From a virus: DNA of 27,799 nt. The notes beneath the pieces are model-generated. The model was not told the DNA's origin. It searched no databases and saw only the letters and a program-made list of their open reading frames with translations. The position numbers and the translations under genes are program-made. This document shows, in pieces, positions 3,740-27,799 of this stretch; the first letter of the stretch is position 1; each line of letters opens with the position of its first letter. The stretch lies in IMG/VR virus record IMGVR_UViG_3300020448_000031, positions 1-27,799 of that record. The stretch is one strand, 5' to 3'.

Positions 3740-3823
3740 CAAGAAGGAGGCAAAGCGTCATCTTAAACCGCAAGCACTCCGACAAGCACGAAAAAGGACT
3801 AGACAGTTGAAAAAGTGTCTACT

Positions 3824-3846
3824 AAACCCTCCCAAGCGGAGGGTTT
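3824..3846 (+). terminator. Hairpin after gp46
   Basis: A perfect 9-bp inverted repeat, AAACCCTCC at 3824-3832 and GGAGGGTTT at 3838-3846, with a CAAGC loop. The run of T after the stem is weak (TTT then CCTATT), so it may act as a leaky terminator or as a 3'-end stabiliser. It lies in the 140-base gap between gp46 and the next gene start, just before a promoter-like segment. The remaining 84 bases of the gap (3740-3823) hold no gene I can support. Confidence 0.72.
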
Positions 3847-3850
3847 CCTA

Positions 3851-3879
3851 TTATAATGTGTATATACAAACGAAATCAC
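3851..3879 (+). promoter_or_regulatory. Promoter/leader element, copy 1 (before the VWA-metallopeptidase gene)
   Basis: TTATAAT at 3851-3857 is a good -10 box. It is followed by TATATACAAA (3861-3870), a short A-rich leader ending AAATCAC, and the ATG at 3880. No good -35 is visible at 17 bases. The same arrangement occurs before the CobS-like gene at 7165-7196. The TATATACA part could alternatively be read as a weak T4-type late promoter (6 of 8 matches to TATAAATA). If TATAAT is used, the RNA starts after the in-frame ATG at 3856, which supports the start at 3880. Confidence 0.55.
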
Positions 3880-6072
3880 ATGCAGAATCAAGAAGTTAAA
3901 GGAAACCTAGCAAAACTACTCGCAACAGAGAACCTAATCGTTGAGCATAGGGTAGTAGAGACAGCATCATTCGATGTGGATCGTAGAGTCTTGCTACTTC
4001 CTATCTGGGATGTGTCTAACACCGTATATAATATGCTAGTGGGTCATGAGGTAGGTCATGCACTATTCACACCCAACACAGACTGGGCAGACATACCAGT
4101 ACCTAAGTCTTACATCAATATTACAGAGGATGCAAGGATTGAGAAACTAATGAAGAGAAAGTTTCCTGGTCTTGCTAAGGATTTTTTCAAAGGATACTCT
4201 CAACTCAATGATCAGGACTTCTTTGGTATAGGTGACATGGAGATTGAGAAACTAAACCTCATCGATAGAATTAATCTACACTATAAGGTAGGATCATATG
4301 CAATCATCCCATTTACTGACGCTGAGATACCCCTCAGAGACGCTACAGGAGAGACAGAAACCTTTGAAGAGGCATTAGAGGTTGCAGAAGCAATTTATGC
4401 ATACGAAAAGAATAAAAAAGAAGAGGAGAAAGTCTCTGCTATCAGTGGAGATAAGGACACAGCAGACATTAATATAGACTGGTCACCAGATGGAGAGAAT
4501 GAAGGTAATGCTGGTGGTCAAGAGGATGGTGATGGTGAGAAAAATAAGACACCTCAAGGATCTGAAGAGGGTGATGGTGAAGATGAAGATGAAGATGATG
4601 ACGAATATGGAGACTACGAGAAGTCAGGTGGTCAGGAAGCAGGTGACTTAGATTCTCTTACTGACAGAGCATTAGCAGAGAATCTAGCAGACCAAGCAAG
4701 TAAGAATGAGCATGAGCGTCCTCAGTATATGGAGATTACAAATGCTGACCTAGGTCATCATGTTGTAGATGCTCATAGAATCAACAGAGAGTCACAAGAA
4801 TTCTGGAATAGTGAGAGATTTACTGTTAAAGACTCTGATTACTTCAGAGAATTAGATTTCACTGATGTTGATGCTGAGTATCGTAAGTTTAAGAGAGAGT
4901 GCTCTCGTGAAGTAAACTATCTCTGCAAAGAGTTTGAGATGAAGAAGGCAGCAACTGCATATGTAAGAGCAACAGTAGCAAAGACTGGTGTTATTGACAC
5001 TAACAAACTTCACCAGTATAAGTTTAATGATGATATCTTTAAGAAGATTACCTCTGTCCCTGATGGTAAGAATCATGGAATGATATTTCTACTAGACTGG
5101 TCTGGATCAATGGCAGACATTATCCATGACACATACAAGCAACTCTTATCATTGTGTCTCTTCTGTCGTAAGTCAAACATTCCTTTCGATGTGTATGCAT
5201 TCGTGCAAGATGGATACTTCTTCCCCGAAGGACATGATAGAGAGAAGTGGGAAGAGAATGGACGTAAGGATACATTCCACATCCCAGATCATTTCTTCCT
5301 ACTTAACTTATTGAATAACAAGTTAAACAATTCAACCTTCGATAAGTATGCAAGAGATATGTGGAGAATCACATACATGTATAACGCAAGATATGGTGAG
5401 TTGAGAAAGCAATGGAATTGGCAGAATCCTTGCACTGTCCCTGATGCTATTCCACCACATCTACAGTTGGGTGGTACTCCTTTGAATGAAGCAATTGTTT
5501 GTCTTCAATCTCTTATCCCACAATTCCAAGCGAAGACTAAGGCAGAGAAAGTACACGTTGCTATCTTAACTGATGGTGAAGCTGCATACTCTGCACAGTA
5601 CGTAGAGACTGAGTGGAATGGTAAGAGAAGGTTACACAGATCTTCTATCAGATCTAATACTCATATCAGAGATAGAAAAAGTGGTAGGACTTTTGCACCT
5701 CAAAGATACAGTCAGTCACAGGGACTTACTAAGCAAATATTACAATACCTTAAAGGTAAATTCCCACAGTGTAACTTCTTAGGTTTCAGACTATGTGTTG
5801 CTAGAGATTTCAATAGATATCTTGCTAACGAGATTGACTATGAAAAGCAAGCACCTTACAAGAATCAGTGGACTAAAAACAAGTCATGTGCTGCTAAGAT
5901 CATGGGTTATCAAGAGATATACTTCATGAATTCTAAGAATCTAAATGATTCTACTGACTTCGAACCTAAGTCTGACTCTAAGGCAGACATTAAGAGAGCA
6001 TTCAGTAAATCTCTTAAGGGTAAGTCAAACAATAAGAAGATCTTATCATCATTCATCCAACAGATAGCATGA
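3880..6072 (+). CDS. Metallopeptidase-VWA protein of CobT-like layout
   Basis: A 730-aa protein from the ATG at 3880; an in-frame ATG at 3856 lies in the promoter and is unlikely. Domains in order: an N-terminal zinc-peptidase-like segment with H56-E-V-G-H60 and a downstream 'ITEDARIEK' whose acidic pair at 83-84 could give a third ligand; a region very rich in Asp and Glu around 200-250; and a C-terminal von Willebrand A domain with a complete MIDAS, D406-x-S408-x-S410, T533 in 'GGTPL' and D565 in 'LTDGE'. Acidic linker plus VWA is the plan of CobT, partner of the AAA+ subunit CobS in aerobic cobaltochelatase, but the HExxH is not part of classical CobT as I know it. With the CobS-like ATPase downstream it suggests a MoxR/VWA-type remodelling or chelatase pair. 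Which of these it does is inference. Confidence 0.85.
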   Translation: MQNQEVKGNLAKLLATENLIVEHRVVETASFDVDRRVLLLPIWDVSNTVYNMLVGHEVGHALFTPNTDWADIPVPKSYINITEDARIEKLMKRKFPGLAKDFFKGYSQLNDQDFFGIGDMEIEKLNLIDRINLHYKVGSYAIIPFTDAEIPLRDATGETETFEEALEVAEAIYAYEKNKKEEEKVSAISGDKDTADINIDWSPDGENEGNAGGQEDGDGEKNKTPQGSEEGDGEDEDEDDDEYGDYEKSGGQEAGDLDSLTDRALAENLADQASKNEHERPQYMEITNADLGHHVVDAHRINRESQEFWNSERFTVKDSDYFRELDFTDVDAEYRKFKRECSREVNYLCKEFEMKKAATAYVRATVAKTGVIDTNKLHQYKFNDDIFKKITSVPDGKNHGMIFLLDWSGSMADIIHDTYKQLLSLCLFCRKSNIPFDVYAFVQDGYFFPEGHDREKWEENGRKDTFHIPDHFFLLNLLNNKLNNSTFDKYARDMWRITYMYNARYGELRKQWNWQNPCTVPDAIPPHLQLGGTPLNEAIVCLQSLIPQFQAKTKAEKVHVAILTDGEAAYSAQYVETEWNGKRRLHRSSIRSNTHIRDRKSGRTFAPQRYSQSQGLTKQILQYLKGKFPQCNFLGFRLCVARDFNRYLANEIDYEKQAPYKNQWTKNKSCAAKIMGYQEIYFMNSKNLNDSTDFEPKSDSKADIKRAFSKSLKGKSNNKKILSSFIQQIA

Positions 6073-6527
6073 TACTATACAAGAAAAACCATTACCCCTC
6101 ATGGGTTTCTTGGGATGATGTAATAAAGAAGCTAGATAGTGAGTTCACTGAGGGGTCTCACTATCTTCAAGTTTCTGGAGGACCATCAGACTTTCATCCG
6201 AGAGTTGGGGTTGTATGTCACAACAATTATTTTCCTGGTACTCTTAATGATCTAGTAAGGTTAGTACAACCTGATCTGGAATCTAAATATGATTACTGTG
6301 ATGTTGATGTGTACGTTTCATTTTGTAAAGATGCATGCAATCATGGTAGACACTGTGATGATAAGGATGTTTTAATTGTACAAGCAATAGGTCGAATGGA
6401 GTATGGATTTGACGATGGGAAATTATATGTGTTGGATCCTGGTGATAGTATTTTTATACCAAAGGGAGTCTATCATAACCCTACTGTCCACAGTCCTAGA
6501 GCAACAGTAAGTTTCGGTTTATTATGA
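6069..6527 (+). CDS. Cupin-fold protein
   Basis: A 152-aa protein. The C-terminal half is a cupin: 'HGRHCDDKD' near 93-101 offers two His and acidic residues as metal ligands, 'VLIVQAIGRMEYGF' makes the first strands, 'LDPGDSIFIPKGVYHNP' near 122-138 carries the classic PGD...P-x-x-x-H second motif, and the end returns to a strand. It resembles the simple cupins used by dioxygenases and sugar-binding enzymes; the substrate is unknown. It overlaps the VWA gene by ATGA and the next small gene by ATGA, so it belongs to the same transcript. It is distinct from the PF13759-like and prolyl-hydroxylase-like oxygenases elsewhere in the window, although the fold is related. Confidence 0.75.
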   Translation: MILYKKNHYPSWVSWDDVIKKLDSEFTEGSHYLQVSGGPSDFHPRVGVVCHNNYFPGTLNDLVRLVQPDLESKYDYCDVDVYVSFCKDACNHGRHCDDKDVLIVQAIGRMEYGFDDGKLYVLDPGDSIFIPKGVYHNPTVHSPRATVSFGLL

Positions 6528-6637
6528 ATTTATTTAAACACCAAAGATTAAAACGTTTACTATCAAAATCATTTCCAGGTAAAAAGATAACTGTAACTGA
6601 TAATAAAGATGGGTCTCAAACGATAACAATACTATGA
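6524..6637 (+). CDS. 37-aa basic small protein
   Basis: ATG at 6524 overlaps the cupin stop (ATGA), and its own TGA overlaps the next ATG at 6634 in the same way, which is the junction style of this genome and the main reason to believe it. The peptide starts MNLFKHQRLKRLLSKSFP, is strongly basic in its first half, and ends with an alternating Thr/Ile strand (QTITIL). I recognise no family. Its basic N terminus could bind nucleic acid, but this is a guess. Confidence 0.6.
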   Translation: MNLFKHQRLKRLLSKSFPGKKITVTDNKDGSQTITIL

Positions 6638-7170
6638 ATATATTTGCAGTAGATGAAGATCCTGCACTAGCAGCATTCGCTTTACCTGATAAGCATATTG
6701 TTAAGATGCCACTAGAGACTACTCAAATGATTGCATTAGTCTTTAGTAAGTGGTATTGGAATGTAGGACCAGTATTAAAATTAGATGGCACTGCATACAA
6801 GACAGAGAGGGGTGCCTTTAGGAATCATCCATGCACTAAGTGGGCAGCAGAGAATGCTGACAATCTACAATGGTTATTTCAGCATGGGATATCATTATGT
6901 CAAGAGTATACTGATAGGTATGGTAAGAAACATGCATGTGAGAATAGTATTAGACTAGCTGCATTAACACAAATGGATAATGGATGTCCAGAGAAACACA
7001 CTCCATTTGTTAGAGCAATGCCTGATACATTAAAGTATGATACTACCATTGATACTATCACTGCATATAGGATGTACCTCAGCACTAAAAAGTGGGCATT
7101 AGATAACTACCGTGTGCCAGATAAGAAACCGTCATGGTTACCTACACAACCTCTCGATATAGGGTTATAA
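6634..7170 (+). CDS. Conserved phage protein, possibly related to pyrimidine-dimer glycosylase/endonuclease V
   Basis: A 178-aa protein. 'MNIFAVDEDPALAAFALPDKHIVKMPLE' style N terminus (Asp then Lys-His-x-x-K-x-x-x-E), then 'NHPCTKWAAENADNLQW' near 64-80 and an 'EYTDRYGKKH' near 91-100. I recall the pattern D-x-x-(R/H)-x-x-K-x-x-x-E, then NHP-x-x-x-W, then E-Y-x-x-R-(F/Y)-G-x-x-H from bacterial and phage proteins placed near the Pyr_excise (PF03013) family. It is not close to T4 DenV in sequence, so a UV-repair role is tentative. DNA repair would fit a phage of the sunlit ocean. It overlaps the 37-aa gene by ATGA and is followed by leader copy 2. Confidence 0.72.
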   Translation: MNIFAVDEDPALAAFALPDKHIVKMPLETTQMIALVFSKWYWNVGPVLKLDGTAYKTERGAFRNHPCTKWAAENADNLQWLFQHGISLCQEYTDRYGKKHACENSIRLAALTQMDNGCPEKHTPFVRAMPDTLKYDTTIDTITAYRMYLSTKKWALDNYRVPDKKPSWLPTQPLDIGL

Positions 7171-7196
7171 TAATAGTATAAACAAAACAAAATCAA
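7165..7196 (+). promoter_or_regulatory. Promoter/leader element, copy 2 (before cobS-like gene)
   Basis: TTATAAT at 7165-7171 with a poor -35 candidate TACACA at 7143-7148 (17-base spacing), followed by TATAAACAAAACAAAATCAA and the ATG at 7197. Aligned with 3851-3879, the TTATAAT box, the TATAwACAAA core and the AAATCAm-ATG end are shared, with a 3-base difference in length. TATAAACA also matches the T4 late box TATAAATA at 7 of 8 positions. No Shine-Dalgarno sequence is present in either copy. Confidence 0.58.
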
Positions 7197-8324
7197 ATGC
7201 CTGTTAAATTACAAGTTACTCCAGAGCAAATAAGAGATTATCTTATCGGAGAATTCGGAGTCAACGTTACAACTCCTGAGTTACAAAATGCATGTGACCA
7301 TTTCGGTCTTGCATATCAAACCGTATCAAAATACATCAGTCAATACAAAGTTAAACGTGGAGTCTGGAACTTAACAGTAGCAGAGACCAAAGAGAAACTA
7401 GAGCAAGTGTATTCACAAGCAAAGACACAGATTGTAGATTCATTTGACCCTGCCTACCTAGCAGGTAAGGATCTGGTACCAGATAGAGATGATCACTTCG
7501 TACCATTCGGTGCCTTTAATGATCTTAAGAAAGTTATAGCATCTAAGATCTTCTATCCAACATTCATTACTGGTCTATCAGGTAACGGTAAGACTTTTGG
7601 TGTAGAGCAAGCATGTGCTCAAGCAAAGAGGGATCTTATCCGAGTAAACATTACAATTGAAACTGATGAAGATGATCTTATTGGCGGTTTTCGTCTCGTG
7701 GATGGTAGCACTGTGTGGCACAACGGTCCAGTTATCGAAGCACTCCAACGTGGAGCAGTTCTACTACTCGACGAGCTTGACCTCGCCAGTAACAAGATCT
7801 TATGCCTTCAATCAATCTTGGAAGGCAAGGGTGTATTCCTCAAGAAACTTGGCAAGTATGTAACACCTGCTGAAGGATTCACAGTCATCGCTACTGCTAA
7901 CACTAAGGGTAAAGGATCAGAGGATGGTAGATTCATTGGTACTAATGTATTGAATGAAGCATTCCTAGAGAGATTCCCAATTACATTTGAGCAAGATTAT
8001 CCTGCTGCTAAAACAGAGATCAGAATGCTTAACAACTACTGTAAGGAATTGGATTGCTGTGATGATAAATATATTGCTAATCTCACCACATGGGCAGAGA
8101 TTATCCGTAAAACATTCAATGACGGTGGCACAGATGAGGTTATCTCAACACGTAGACTTGTGCACATCATCAGAGCATATGCTATATTCTCTGATAGGGT
8201 TAAAGCAATCAAGGTATGCTTGAATCGTTTCGATGATGAAACAAAGCAGTCTTTCTTAGAATTATATGATAAGATAGATAACGAGGTTGACATTGAATCA
8301 CTTGACACAGTACTAGGATCCTGA
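7197..8324 (+). CDS. cobS: CobS-like AAA+ ATPase (MoxR type)
   Basis: A 375-aa AAA+ protein of the type annotated as CobS in cyanomyoviruses. An N-terminal helical region of about 100 residues is followed by Walker A GLSGNGKT at 126-133, an 'EDDLIGGF' motif near 158-165 typical of MoxR/CobS ATPases, Walker B VLLLDELD at 188-195, sensor 1 in 'ATANTKG' near 232-238, and a likely arginine finger in 'AFLERFP' near R259. In bacteria CobS drives cobalt insertion with CobT and CobN; no CobN is in this window. The VWA protein 1.1 kb upstream has the domain plan expected of a CobT-like partner, and both have the same leader. It may instead act as a general remodelling ATPase. Confidence 0.9.
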   Translation: MPVKLQVTPEQIRDYLIGEFGVNVTTPELQNACDHFGLAYQTVSKYISQYKVKRGVWNLTVAETKEKLEQVYSQAKTQIVDSFDPAYLAGKDLVPDRDDHFVPFGAFNDLKKVIASKIFYPTFITGLSGNGKTFGVEQACAQAKRDLIRVNITIETDEDDLIGGFRLVDGSTVWHNGPVIEALQRGAVLLLDELDLASNKILCLQSILEGKGVFLKKLGKYVTPAEGFTVIATANTKGKGSEDGRFIGTNVLNEAFLERFPITFEQDYPAAKTEIRMLNNYCKELDCCDDKYIANLTTWAEIIRKTFNDGGTDEVISTRRLVHIIRAYAIFSDRVKAIKVCLNRFDDETKQSFLELYDKIDNEVDIESLDTVLGS

Positions 8325-27616: not shown

Positions 27617-27638
27617 CAGAGGGTGTATATTATAAATG
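27603..27638 (+). promoter_or_regulatory. Sigma70-type promoter with overlapping late-type box
   Basis: TTGACA at 27603-27608, a 17-base spacer and TATATT at 27626-27631 (5 of 6 to the consensus). A second TTGACA lies at 27613-27618. TATAAATG at 27631-27638 matches the T4 late box at 7 of 8 positions, so the next transcript may be made both early and late. It overlaps the end of the last oxygenase gene and faces the structured leader. Confidence 0.65.
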
Positions 27639-27698
27639 TGCTGATCACACATCGGGAGTGACTGAATAAACTTACTGGCATTTTGCTGGTTAAGGTGA

Positions 27699-27755
27699 TG
27701 AGACACAGGTGGTGCTGCTGACGCAAGTCAGAACCGACCTACCAGTCGGGTCTCA
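27699..27755 (+). ncRNA. Predicted three-way-junction RNA in the leader of the next gene
   Basis: Three nested pairings fit without conflict. P1 is TGAGAC (27699-27704) with GTCTCA (27750-27755). P2 is CTGAC (27718-27722) with GTCAG (27727-27731) around a GCAA tetraloop. P3 is CCGAC (27734-27738) with GTCGG (27745-27749) around CTACCA. It lies in the 5' leader of the next gene, downstream of a strong promoter. It does not match the glnA or cobalamin riboswitch sequences as I remember them. The class is unknown and it may be a cis-regulator or a small RNA. Confidence 0.5.
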
Positions 27756-27761
27756 GGCAGA

Positions 27762-27799
27762 GTGAAAATTACTTACTGTAGTAATGCCTCGCTCTTGTT
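27762..27799 (+). CDS. Possible start of the next gene (truncated by window end)
   Basis: The frame from GTG 27762 (MKITYCSNASLL) is open to the window end and reads like a protein start. An alternative ATG at 27784 in another frame (MPRSC) is also open. No clear ribosome site distinguishes them. A weak inverted repeat, ATTACT with AGTAAT, covers 27768-27785. Too short to identify. Confidence 0.25.
   Translation, partial: MKITYCSNASLL

Follow-up and report, generated by a model that had tools for sequence, protein, structure and literature searches.

Two adjacent cyanophage genes, encoding a CobS-like AAA+ ATPase and a protein with a VWA domain, have been described as the cobST cluster of the cyanophage core genome, where the VWA protein was named CobT and its annotation as a peptidase was said to have been made "mistakenly" (Liu et al., 2021; PMC8651126). 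We analysed the same two genes, called here the VWA gene and cobS, in a viral stretch of 27,799 nucleotides (the window; IMG/VR record IMGVR_UViG_3300020448_000031, positions 1 to 27,799), together with the nearly identical leader in front of both. An earlier note, made from the letters of the window alone, had proposed from this leader that the two proteins are made together as one machine, and had remarked that cyanophage cobS is usually discussed alone, a remark outdated by the cobST report. In contrast to that report, CobT models fail with the VWA protein studied here, and an invariant HExxH motif supports a peptidase-like fold.

Several other described systems are close to this pair. In the jumbo phages of group 2.2 (Iyer et al., 2021; PMC7824862) a MoxR-type AAA+ gene stands beside a VWA gene with an N-terminal metallopeptidase domain, the same layout as here, the likeness being one of domain layout. 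A role in virion assembly was proposed for that pair; plasmids, integrative and conjugative elements (ICEs), replication contexts and the promoter lay outside the focus of that study. NorQ-NorD and CbbQ-CbbO provide the best fold matches for both phage proteins, and NorQ-NorD resembles them in its N-terminal domain, flexible linker, VWA domain with a metal ion-dependent adhesion site (MIDAS) and single-ring AAA+ partner (PMC13036017). The target of NorQD is iron insertion into the nitric oxide reductase cNOR, however; the phage has no such target, and sequence identity is low. In CobN-CobS-CobT there is likewise an AAA+ protein, CobS, and a VWA protein, CobT, with an acidic linker and MIDAS, but CobT lacks HExxH and differs in its N-terminal sequence, and the phage proteins miss the curated CobS and CobT cut-offs. 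With respect to the promoter, the late promoter of T4, TATAAATA, is also a single A/T-rich box near -10, whereas the genes studied here have TATAAT together with a dyad at a fixed distance upstream. In marine T4-like cyanophages the genes fall into early, middle and late classes, with no middle control of the motA/asiA type (PMC5780444). The pair and, probably, its promoter were already known; what is new here is the link between the two, together with evidence placing the VWA partner among the HExxH-VWA proteins of mobile elements and not with CobT.

The leader belongs to a longer promoter, of which it makes up the downstream half: an inverted repeat, GACAGTT-N4-AAsTGTCcAC, is followed after 28±1 bp by TATAAT. 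Upstream regions from more than 80 relatives gave a consensus layout of a 22-bp inverted-repeat site (the dyad), 28 bp, TATAAT, an A/C-rich leader of about 20-30 bp and the ATG. The full promoter spans 3802-3857 before the VWA gene and 7116-7171 before cobS, and these are the only two genes of the window with the element, in agreement with the earlier note, which had seen the arrangement at no other gene start. The parts that it had described were all present: TTATAAT at 3851-3857 and 7165-7171, the sole exact matches to TATAWACAAA in the window (TATATACAAA at 3861-3870 and TATAAACAAA at 7177-7186), and start codons at 3880 and 7197 with no Shine-Dalgarno core. The upstream dyads (3802-3823 and 7116-7137) had been overlooked, as had the occurrence of the same promoter before other genes of related genomes. 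Absence of a Shine-Dalgarno core is weak evidence, since the core is also missing at 17 of 28 other starts examined, and it was dropped as a special mark of the pair. The ATG at 3856, listed as the start of the VWA open reading frame, was rejected because it falls within the -10 hexamer and the relatives conserve another start; judging from the sequence, the VWA transcript would begin at about 3864. A T4 late promoter was ruled out, the box being TATAAT rather than TATAAATA, which was found at neither gene. We also considered the dyad as an RNA hairpin. Covariation between its arms is no higher than expected from column composition, which argues for a DNA site, and the cobS dyad of the window folds no better than shuffled sequences.

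How much of this could be produced by chance? TATAWACAAA alone is at chance level, with 11 matches at one mismatch or fewer in the window against 7.9 expected. The full element was scored with a matrix whose training set excluded the window and the four loci closest to it, and compared with 100 shuffles of the window. It reached 32.0 bits at the VWA gene and 24.3 bits at the weaker cobS copy, with 4.9 at the third-best site, while the best scores in the shuffles averaged 10.2 and never exceeded 24.2. A matrix built from VWA sites only recovered the cobS site at 23.0 (shuffle maximum 19.1), and one built from cobS sites only recovered the VWA site at 31.4 (shuffle maximum 23.0); therefore the two genes share one element.

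Alignment of the upstream regions in related cyanophages, a check that the earlier note had proposed, showed the element kept at both genes in nearly all of them. The dyad is present in 134 of 143 upstream regions, and 123 of these dyads lie 27-29 bp from the best TATAAT. Hairpins are common between the dyad and the -10 hexamer of the VWA promoter, and the spacing is constant with or without an intervening terminator hairpin, which argues for a promoter element and not a by-product of the terminator. Dyad losses were few, and correlated loss at the two genes had a p value of only 0.10. Locus L081 lacks the usual -10 region at both genes and has in its place a different block, TGTTACTCACC, that precedes either ATG by 43-44 bp. 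The block occurs nowhere else in the contig, and the similarity between the two genes continues past it. This joint substitution, a single case, fits joint control. The phage in question is divergent (L081:679-722 and L081:2791-2835; also L071). Four other loci (L023, L058, L076 and L080) have TATAAT with no recognisable dyad upstream of the VWA gene, cobS or both, possibly a variant site with another specificity.

Four complete cyanophage genomes were then scanned with a threshold of 18 bits. Sites above it numbered 13 in P-TIM40, 10 in Syn9, 18 in S-PM2 and 11 in P-HM1, as compared to 0-0.2 in random sequence. Most of them fall in one cluster of small genes (46-56 kb in P-TIM40, 44-53 kb in Syn9, 5-24 kb in S-PM2 and 31-39 kb in P-HM1), which in P-TIM40 and Syn9 contains hypothetical proteins, methyltransferases and a helicase. 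In the replication region of P-TIM40 the element is found only at the VWA gene and cobS. With about 10-18 sites per genome, a leader private to the pair is ruled out, and the promoter therefore places the two genes in a common regulon but does not point to a machine of these two alone. The step from shared leader to single machine taken in the earlier note holds only as far as the same promoter design at both genes in nearly all relatives. In 2016 Doron and colleagues reportedly described a novel element that controls early genes in Syn9 and P-TIM40, two of the phages scanned here, and that is conserved upstream of a subset of promoters. We take the dyad promoter to be probably this element, and infer early timing for the pair.

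The pairing of the two genes is strongly supported, as the earlier note had anticipated. Essentially all T4-like viruses of marine cyanobacteria have both genes, and cyanophage records holding VWA relatives and cobS relatives are equal in number (365 Synechococcus, 61 "Cyanophage" and 24 Prochlorococcus records). In every contig that extends far enough, the VWA gene precedes cobS on the same strand, at a distance of 50-2,700 bp; one locus is unclear (L065, with no clear VWA match in the 3.3 kb upstream of cobS, where the contig ends). In S-CRM01 the pair stays together, with a terminator between the genes, while gp44 and gp45 are elsewhere on the other strand. The pair thus shows the gene arrangement expected of a MoxR-VWA system, in which a MoxR gene and a gene for a VWA protein with MIDAS are neighbours and are kept together. 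The VWA gene of Synechococcus phage S-SKS1 (NC_020851.1 91339-93360) is unannotated.

The VWA protein was likened to CobT in the earlier note, and this applies only loosely. Its VWA domain does have a complete and invariant MIDAS (Table 1), but it is not CobT by sequence. TIGR01651 (CobT) gave no match, PF06213 appeared in only one of 43 VWA sequences (E 0.074) and PF11775 in none; Pfam yielded no domain, and phmmer and profile searches of the PDB no match. In profile-profile comparison the phage family matched 20 authentic CobT proteins with a probability of 5.5%, versus 99.5% for a cellular group of proteins with HExxH, ED(A/V)RxE and a VWA domain. Authentic CobT matches the same cellular group at 99.6%, yet has lost HExxH: the motif is missing in 20 of 20 authentic CobT proteins, whereas HEVGH is invariant in the phage family. 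The phage VWA protein and CobT are therefore separate branches of one superfamily. No relatives of the ICP2-type CobT were found in the viral contigs. An AlphaFold2 model of the VWA protein (mean pLDDT, the predicted local distance difference test score, 75), based on alignments from viral-contig loci as in all our structure predictions, places strands before two long helices that bear HExxH and NxxEDxRxE in the N-terminal domain. Both motifs are invariant, so that the VWA domain is fused to an N-terminal metallopeptidase domain as in the jumbo-phage pair, and the acidic linker between the two is variable. The best PDB fold matches were the NorD VWA domain in NorQD complexes, with weak E-values of about 6e-4. 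The ATPase matches AAA_5 (PF07728) at 59 bits against a cut-off of 22, with Walker A and B intact, and falls short of the CobS model TIGR01650 (67.8 of 558.55 bits); its structure model matches CbbQ and NorQ. The N-terminal domain of the ATPase (residues 1-60; 7197-7376) is small, with a helix-turn-helix-like pattern in the model, and the match to solved CobS begins at residue 81.

Relatives of the pair are widespread outside cyanophages. Plasmid records with a relative number 2,326 and are mostly conjugative. IncC plasmids have the order AAA ATPase, ssb, bet, exonuclease, DUF3150, VWA and later a toprim protein, and IncHI2 plasmids AAA ATPase, DUF3150, VWA and toprim. The cellular matches in marine gammaproteobacteria are ICE-like, with an AAA_5/CbbQ_C ATPase, DUF3150, VWA and RadC. 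In phages the pair adjoins ligase and polymerase (nickie), primase and polymerase (ICP2 and T5S1), polymerase III alpha (RHph_X66 and PhiR41_1) or recombinase and polymerase (BUCTxx99). The cyanophage profiles match the VWA proteins of these elements, and 10 of the 12 mobile-element or cellular VWA proteins checked have retained HExxH. No cobalamin gene was found beside any inspected plasmid, ICE-like or phage relative, and of six genomes that carry the ICE-like form, four have no CobN-type protein; as a class, the pair therefore does not depend on CobN. Since the plasmid and phage relatives sit among replication and recombination genes, the B12 label of cobS is doubtful. The plasmid and ICE-like versions regularly include DUF3150 as a third gene (L207:1786-9779 and L208:3376-8014), for which no counterpart is visible in the cyanophage.

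What, then, would the two proteins do? Most likely they form a remodelling machine of the MoxR-VWA type, similar to NorQD and linked to DNA replication or recombination. We lean, without great confidence, to the complete form of this proposal, that the pair is one two-part MoxR/VWA machine expressed from matched regulon promoters, whose target is likely a replication or recombination protein rather than a cobalt chelatase. The CobS-like protein would make an AAA+ ring, and the VWA protein would dock onto it through its VWA domain, a complex suggested by analogy with NorQD. The MIDAS and the N-terminal HExxH domain, with the acidic linker between them, would hold, remodel and possibly cut the target, as NorD does on NorQ; the HExxH domain may be a second grip or a protease, with putative peptidase activity. 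Each gene would be under its own promoter of one phage regulon, with the dyad 28 bp upstream of TATAAT standing in for a -35 box and presumably bound by an activator acting with the host RNA polymerase. Both subunits would in this way be produced simultaneously, probably early, and independently of the surrounding T4-type replication genes. The gene neighbourhoods point to a phage DNA replication or recombination protein as the most likely target. Several observations weigh against this proposal. The promoter is common to mostly unrelated small genes, and co-regulation alone is no proof of a complex; phages often put unrelated metabolic genes in replication modules, so the neighbourhood is indirect evidence. 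In Roseobacter phage CRP-810 the pair is near endonuclease V and an integrase, with no clear adjacent replication genes. Two of the 12 mobile-element VWA proteins have no HExxH, therefore peptidase activity is not essential in all. The closest single-ring PDB relative of the ATPase by sequence is the solved cobaltochelatase CobS (E 1.6e-22). Finally, CobN is above cut-off and CobT missing in both picocyanobacterial genomes tested, which makes a cobalamin model possible for cyanophages.

A more sweeping version, which we put forward only tentatively, holds that cobS is not a B12 gene at all, and that together with the "peptidase" gene it encodes a zincin-armed AAA+ remodeller, an accessory to DNA replication or recombination distributed over phages, conjugative plasmids and ICE-like elements and driven in cyanophages by matched early-regulon promoters. 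The opposite view is that of PMC8651126: viral CobS and CobT would join host CobN to insert cobalt into the corrin ring and so increase (pseudo)cobalamin, for example for ribonucleotide reductase. The host gene content and the similarity to solved CobS just mentioned speak for this, but the failure of the VWA protein with CobT models, the 68 of 558.6 bits that the ATPase obtains with the CobS model, the HExxH invariant here and missing in authentic CobT, the neighbourhoods free of cobalamin genes, and the four of six hosts of the ICE-like form that have no CobN make it unlikely. Could the pair serve host takeover or counter-defence, as an early remodeller or protease acting on a host protein? 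Elsewhere the promoter stands mainly before a cluster of small genes, of unknown function or coding for DNA methyltransferases, as is typical of takeover genes; takeover genes vary, however, while this pair is retained in the replication and recombination modules of very different phages and plasmids, and with no host target known we regard this role as quite unlikely. A virion-assembly chaperone with peptidase activity, used in maturation or assembly of capsid or tail proteins as proposed in PMC7824862, is very unlikely in our view: TATAAT with a dyad is not a T4-type late promoter, the genes lie among replication genes, and conjugative plasmids, which carry relatives, produce no virions, so that the role fits less well here. 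We give hardly any credence to the idea that the common leader is due to chance or is a generic host-type promoter, uninformative on joint function. The chance-level frequency of TATAWACAAA and the other genes bearing the promoter would agree with it, but in the window the full dyad, 28-bp gap and TATAAT are confined to these two genes, and nearly all relatives have them at both.

The distinction matters because cobS, present in every T4-like cyanophage, is routinely tallied as a cobalamin auxiliary metabolic gene in marine virus surveys. If the remodelling machine is real, such counts misread cobS, and the most abundant marine phages have a core function that has gone unnoticed. A homologous pair in Escherichia phage PhiR41_1 makes the question testable in E. 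coli K-12, a genetically easy host that is not known to make a corrin ring.

Table 1. Coordinates of the genes, promoter elements and protein motifs in the window.
Feature	Position	Strand	Basis
VWA promoter, upstream dyad, GACAGTTGAAAAAGTGTCTACT	3802..3823	+	conserved 5' of the VWA gene in relatives
Hairpin of 9 bp after the dyad and before the -10; probably the intrinsic terminator of the preceding gp46 operon	3824..3846	+	fold
VWA promoter, -10 hexamer TATAAT, 28 bp past the dyad	3852..3857	+	
VWA initial region and short A/C-rich leader with TATATACAAA, no Shine-Dalgarno	3858..3879	+	
VWA protein, 730 aa, phrog_459 "peptidase"	3880..6072	+	library matches, 43-sequence alignment
HEVGH, zincin-type HExxH, residues 56-60	4045..4059	+	H56, E57, H60 invariant in 43 relatives
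NITEDARIE, residues 80-88, likely third metal ligand	4117..4143	+	N80, E83, D84, R86, E88 invariant
Acidic low-confidence linker, residues ~190-255	4447..4644	+	pLDDT <50; 19 acidic residues in 40
VWA domain, complete MIDAS D406-x-S408-x-S410, T533, D565	5068..5949	+	invariant in 43; best PDB fold match NorD VWA
Cupin/JmjC-like protein, phrog_4992, overlaps the VWA stop codon	6069..6527	+	
Pyrimidine-dimer glycosylase-like protein, PF03013, phrog_624	6634..7170	+	
cobS promoter, upstream dyad, GCCAGATAAGAAACCGTCATGG, within the 3' end of the 6634-7170 gene	7116..7137	+	
cobS promoter, -10 hexamer TATAAT, 28 bp past the dyad	7166..7171	+	
cobS initial region and leader with TATAAACAAA, no Shine-Dalgarno	7172..7196	+	
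CobS/NorQ-like AAA+ ATPase, 375 aa, phrog_249	7197..8324	+	
Walker A GLSGNGKT, residues 126-133	7572..7595	+	G126, S128-T133 invariant
Walker B LLLDE, residues 189-193	7761..7775	+	invariant

The window is a fragment of a T4-like cyanophage, with the gene order gp47, gp46, VWA gene, cupin-like gene, pyrimidine-dimer glycosylase-like gene, CobS-like ATPase, DUF3310, gp45 and gp44, followed by gp62, gp43, a UvsX-like and a DnaB-like gene. P-TIM40 was the nearest isolate found, with 70% identity for CobS and 42% for the VWA protein. The cupin/JmjC-like gene between the pair is absent from the loci of some relatives. A pyrimidine-dimer glycosylase-like gene adjoins the pair both in the window and in Roseobacter phage CRP-810 (L210:6037-6531). 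In the window the cobS dyad overlaps the final codons of this gene (VPDKKPSW...), as it does those of the preceding gene in several relatives, and the same nucleotides appear to be used for coding as well as for the promoter. A manA RNA (Rfam RF01745, 138 bits) lies at 27636-27799, where it is interrupted by the end of the window.

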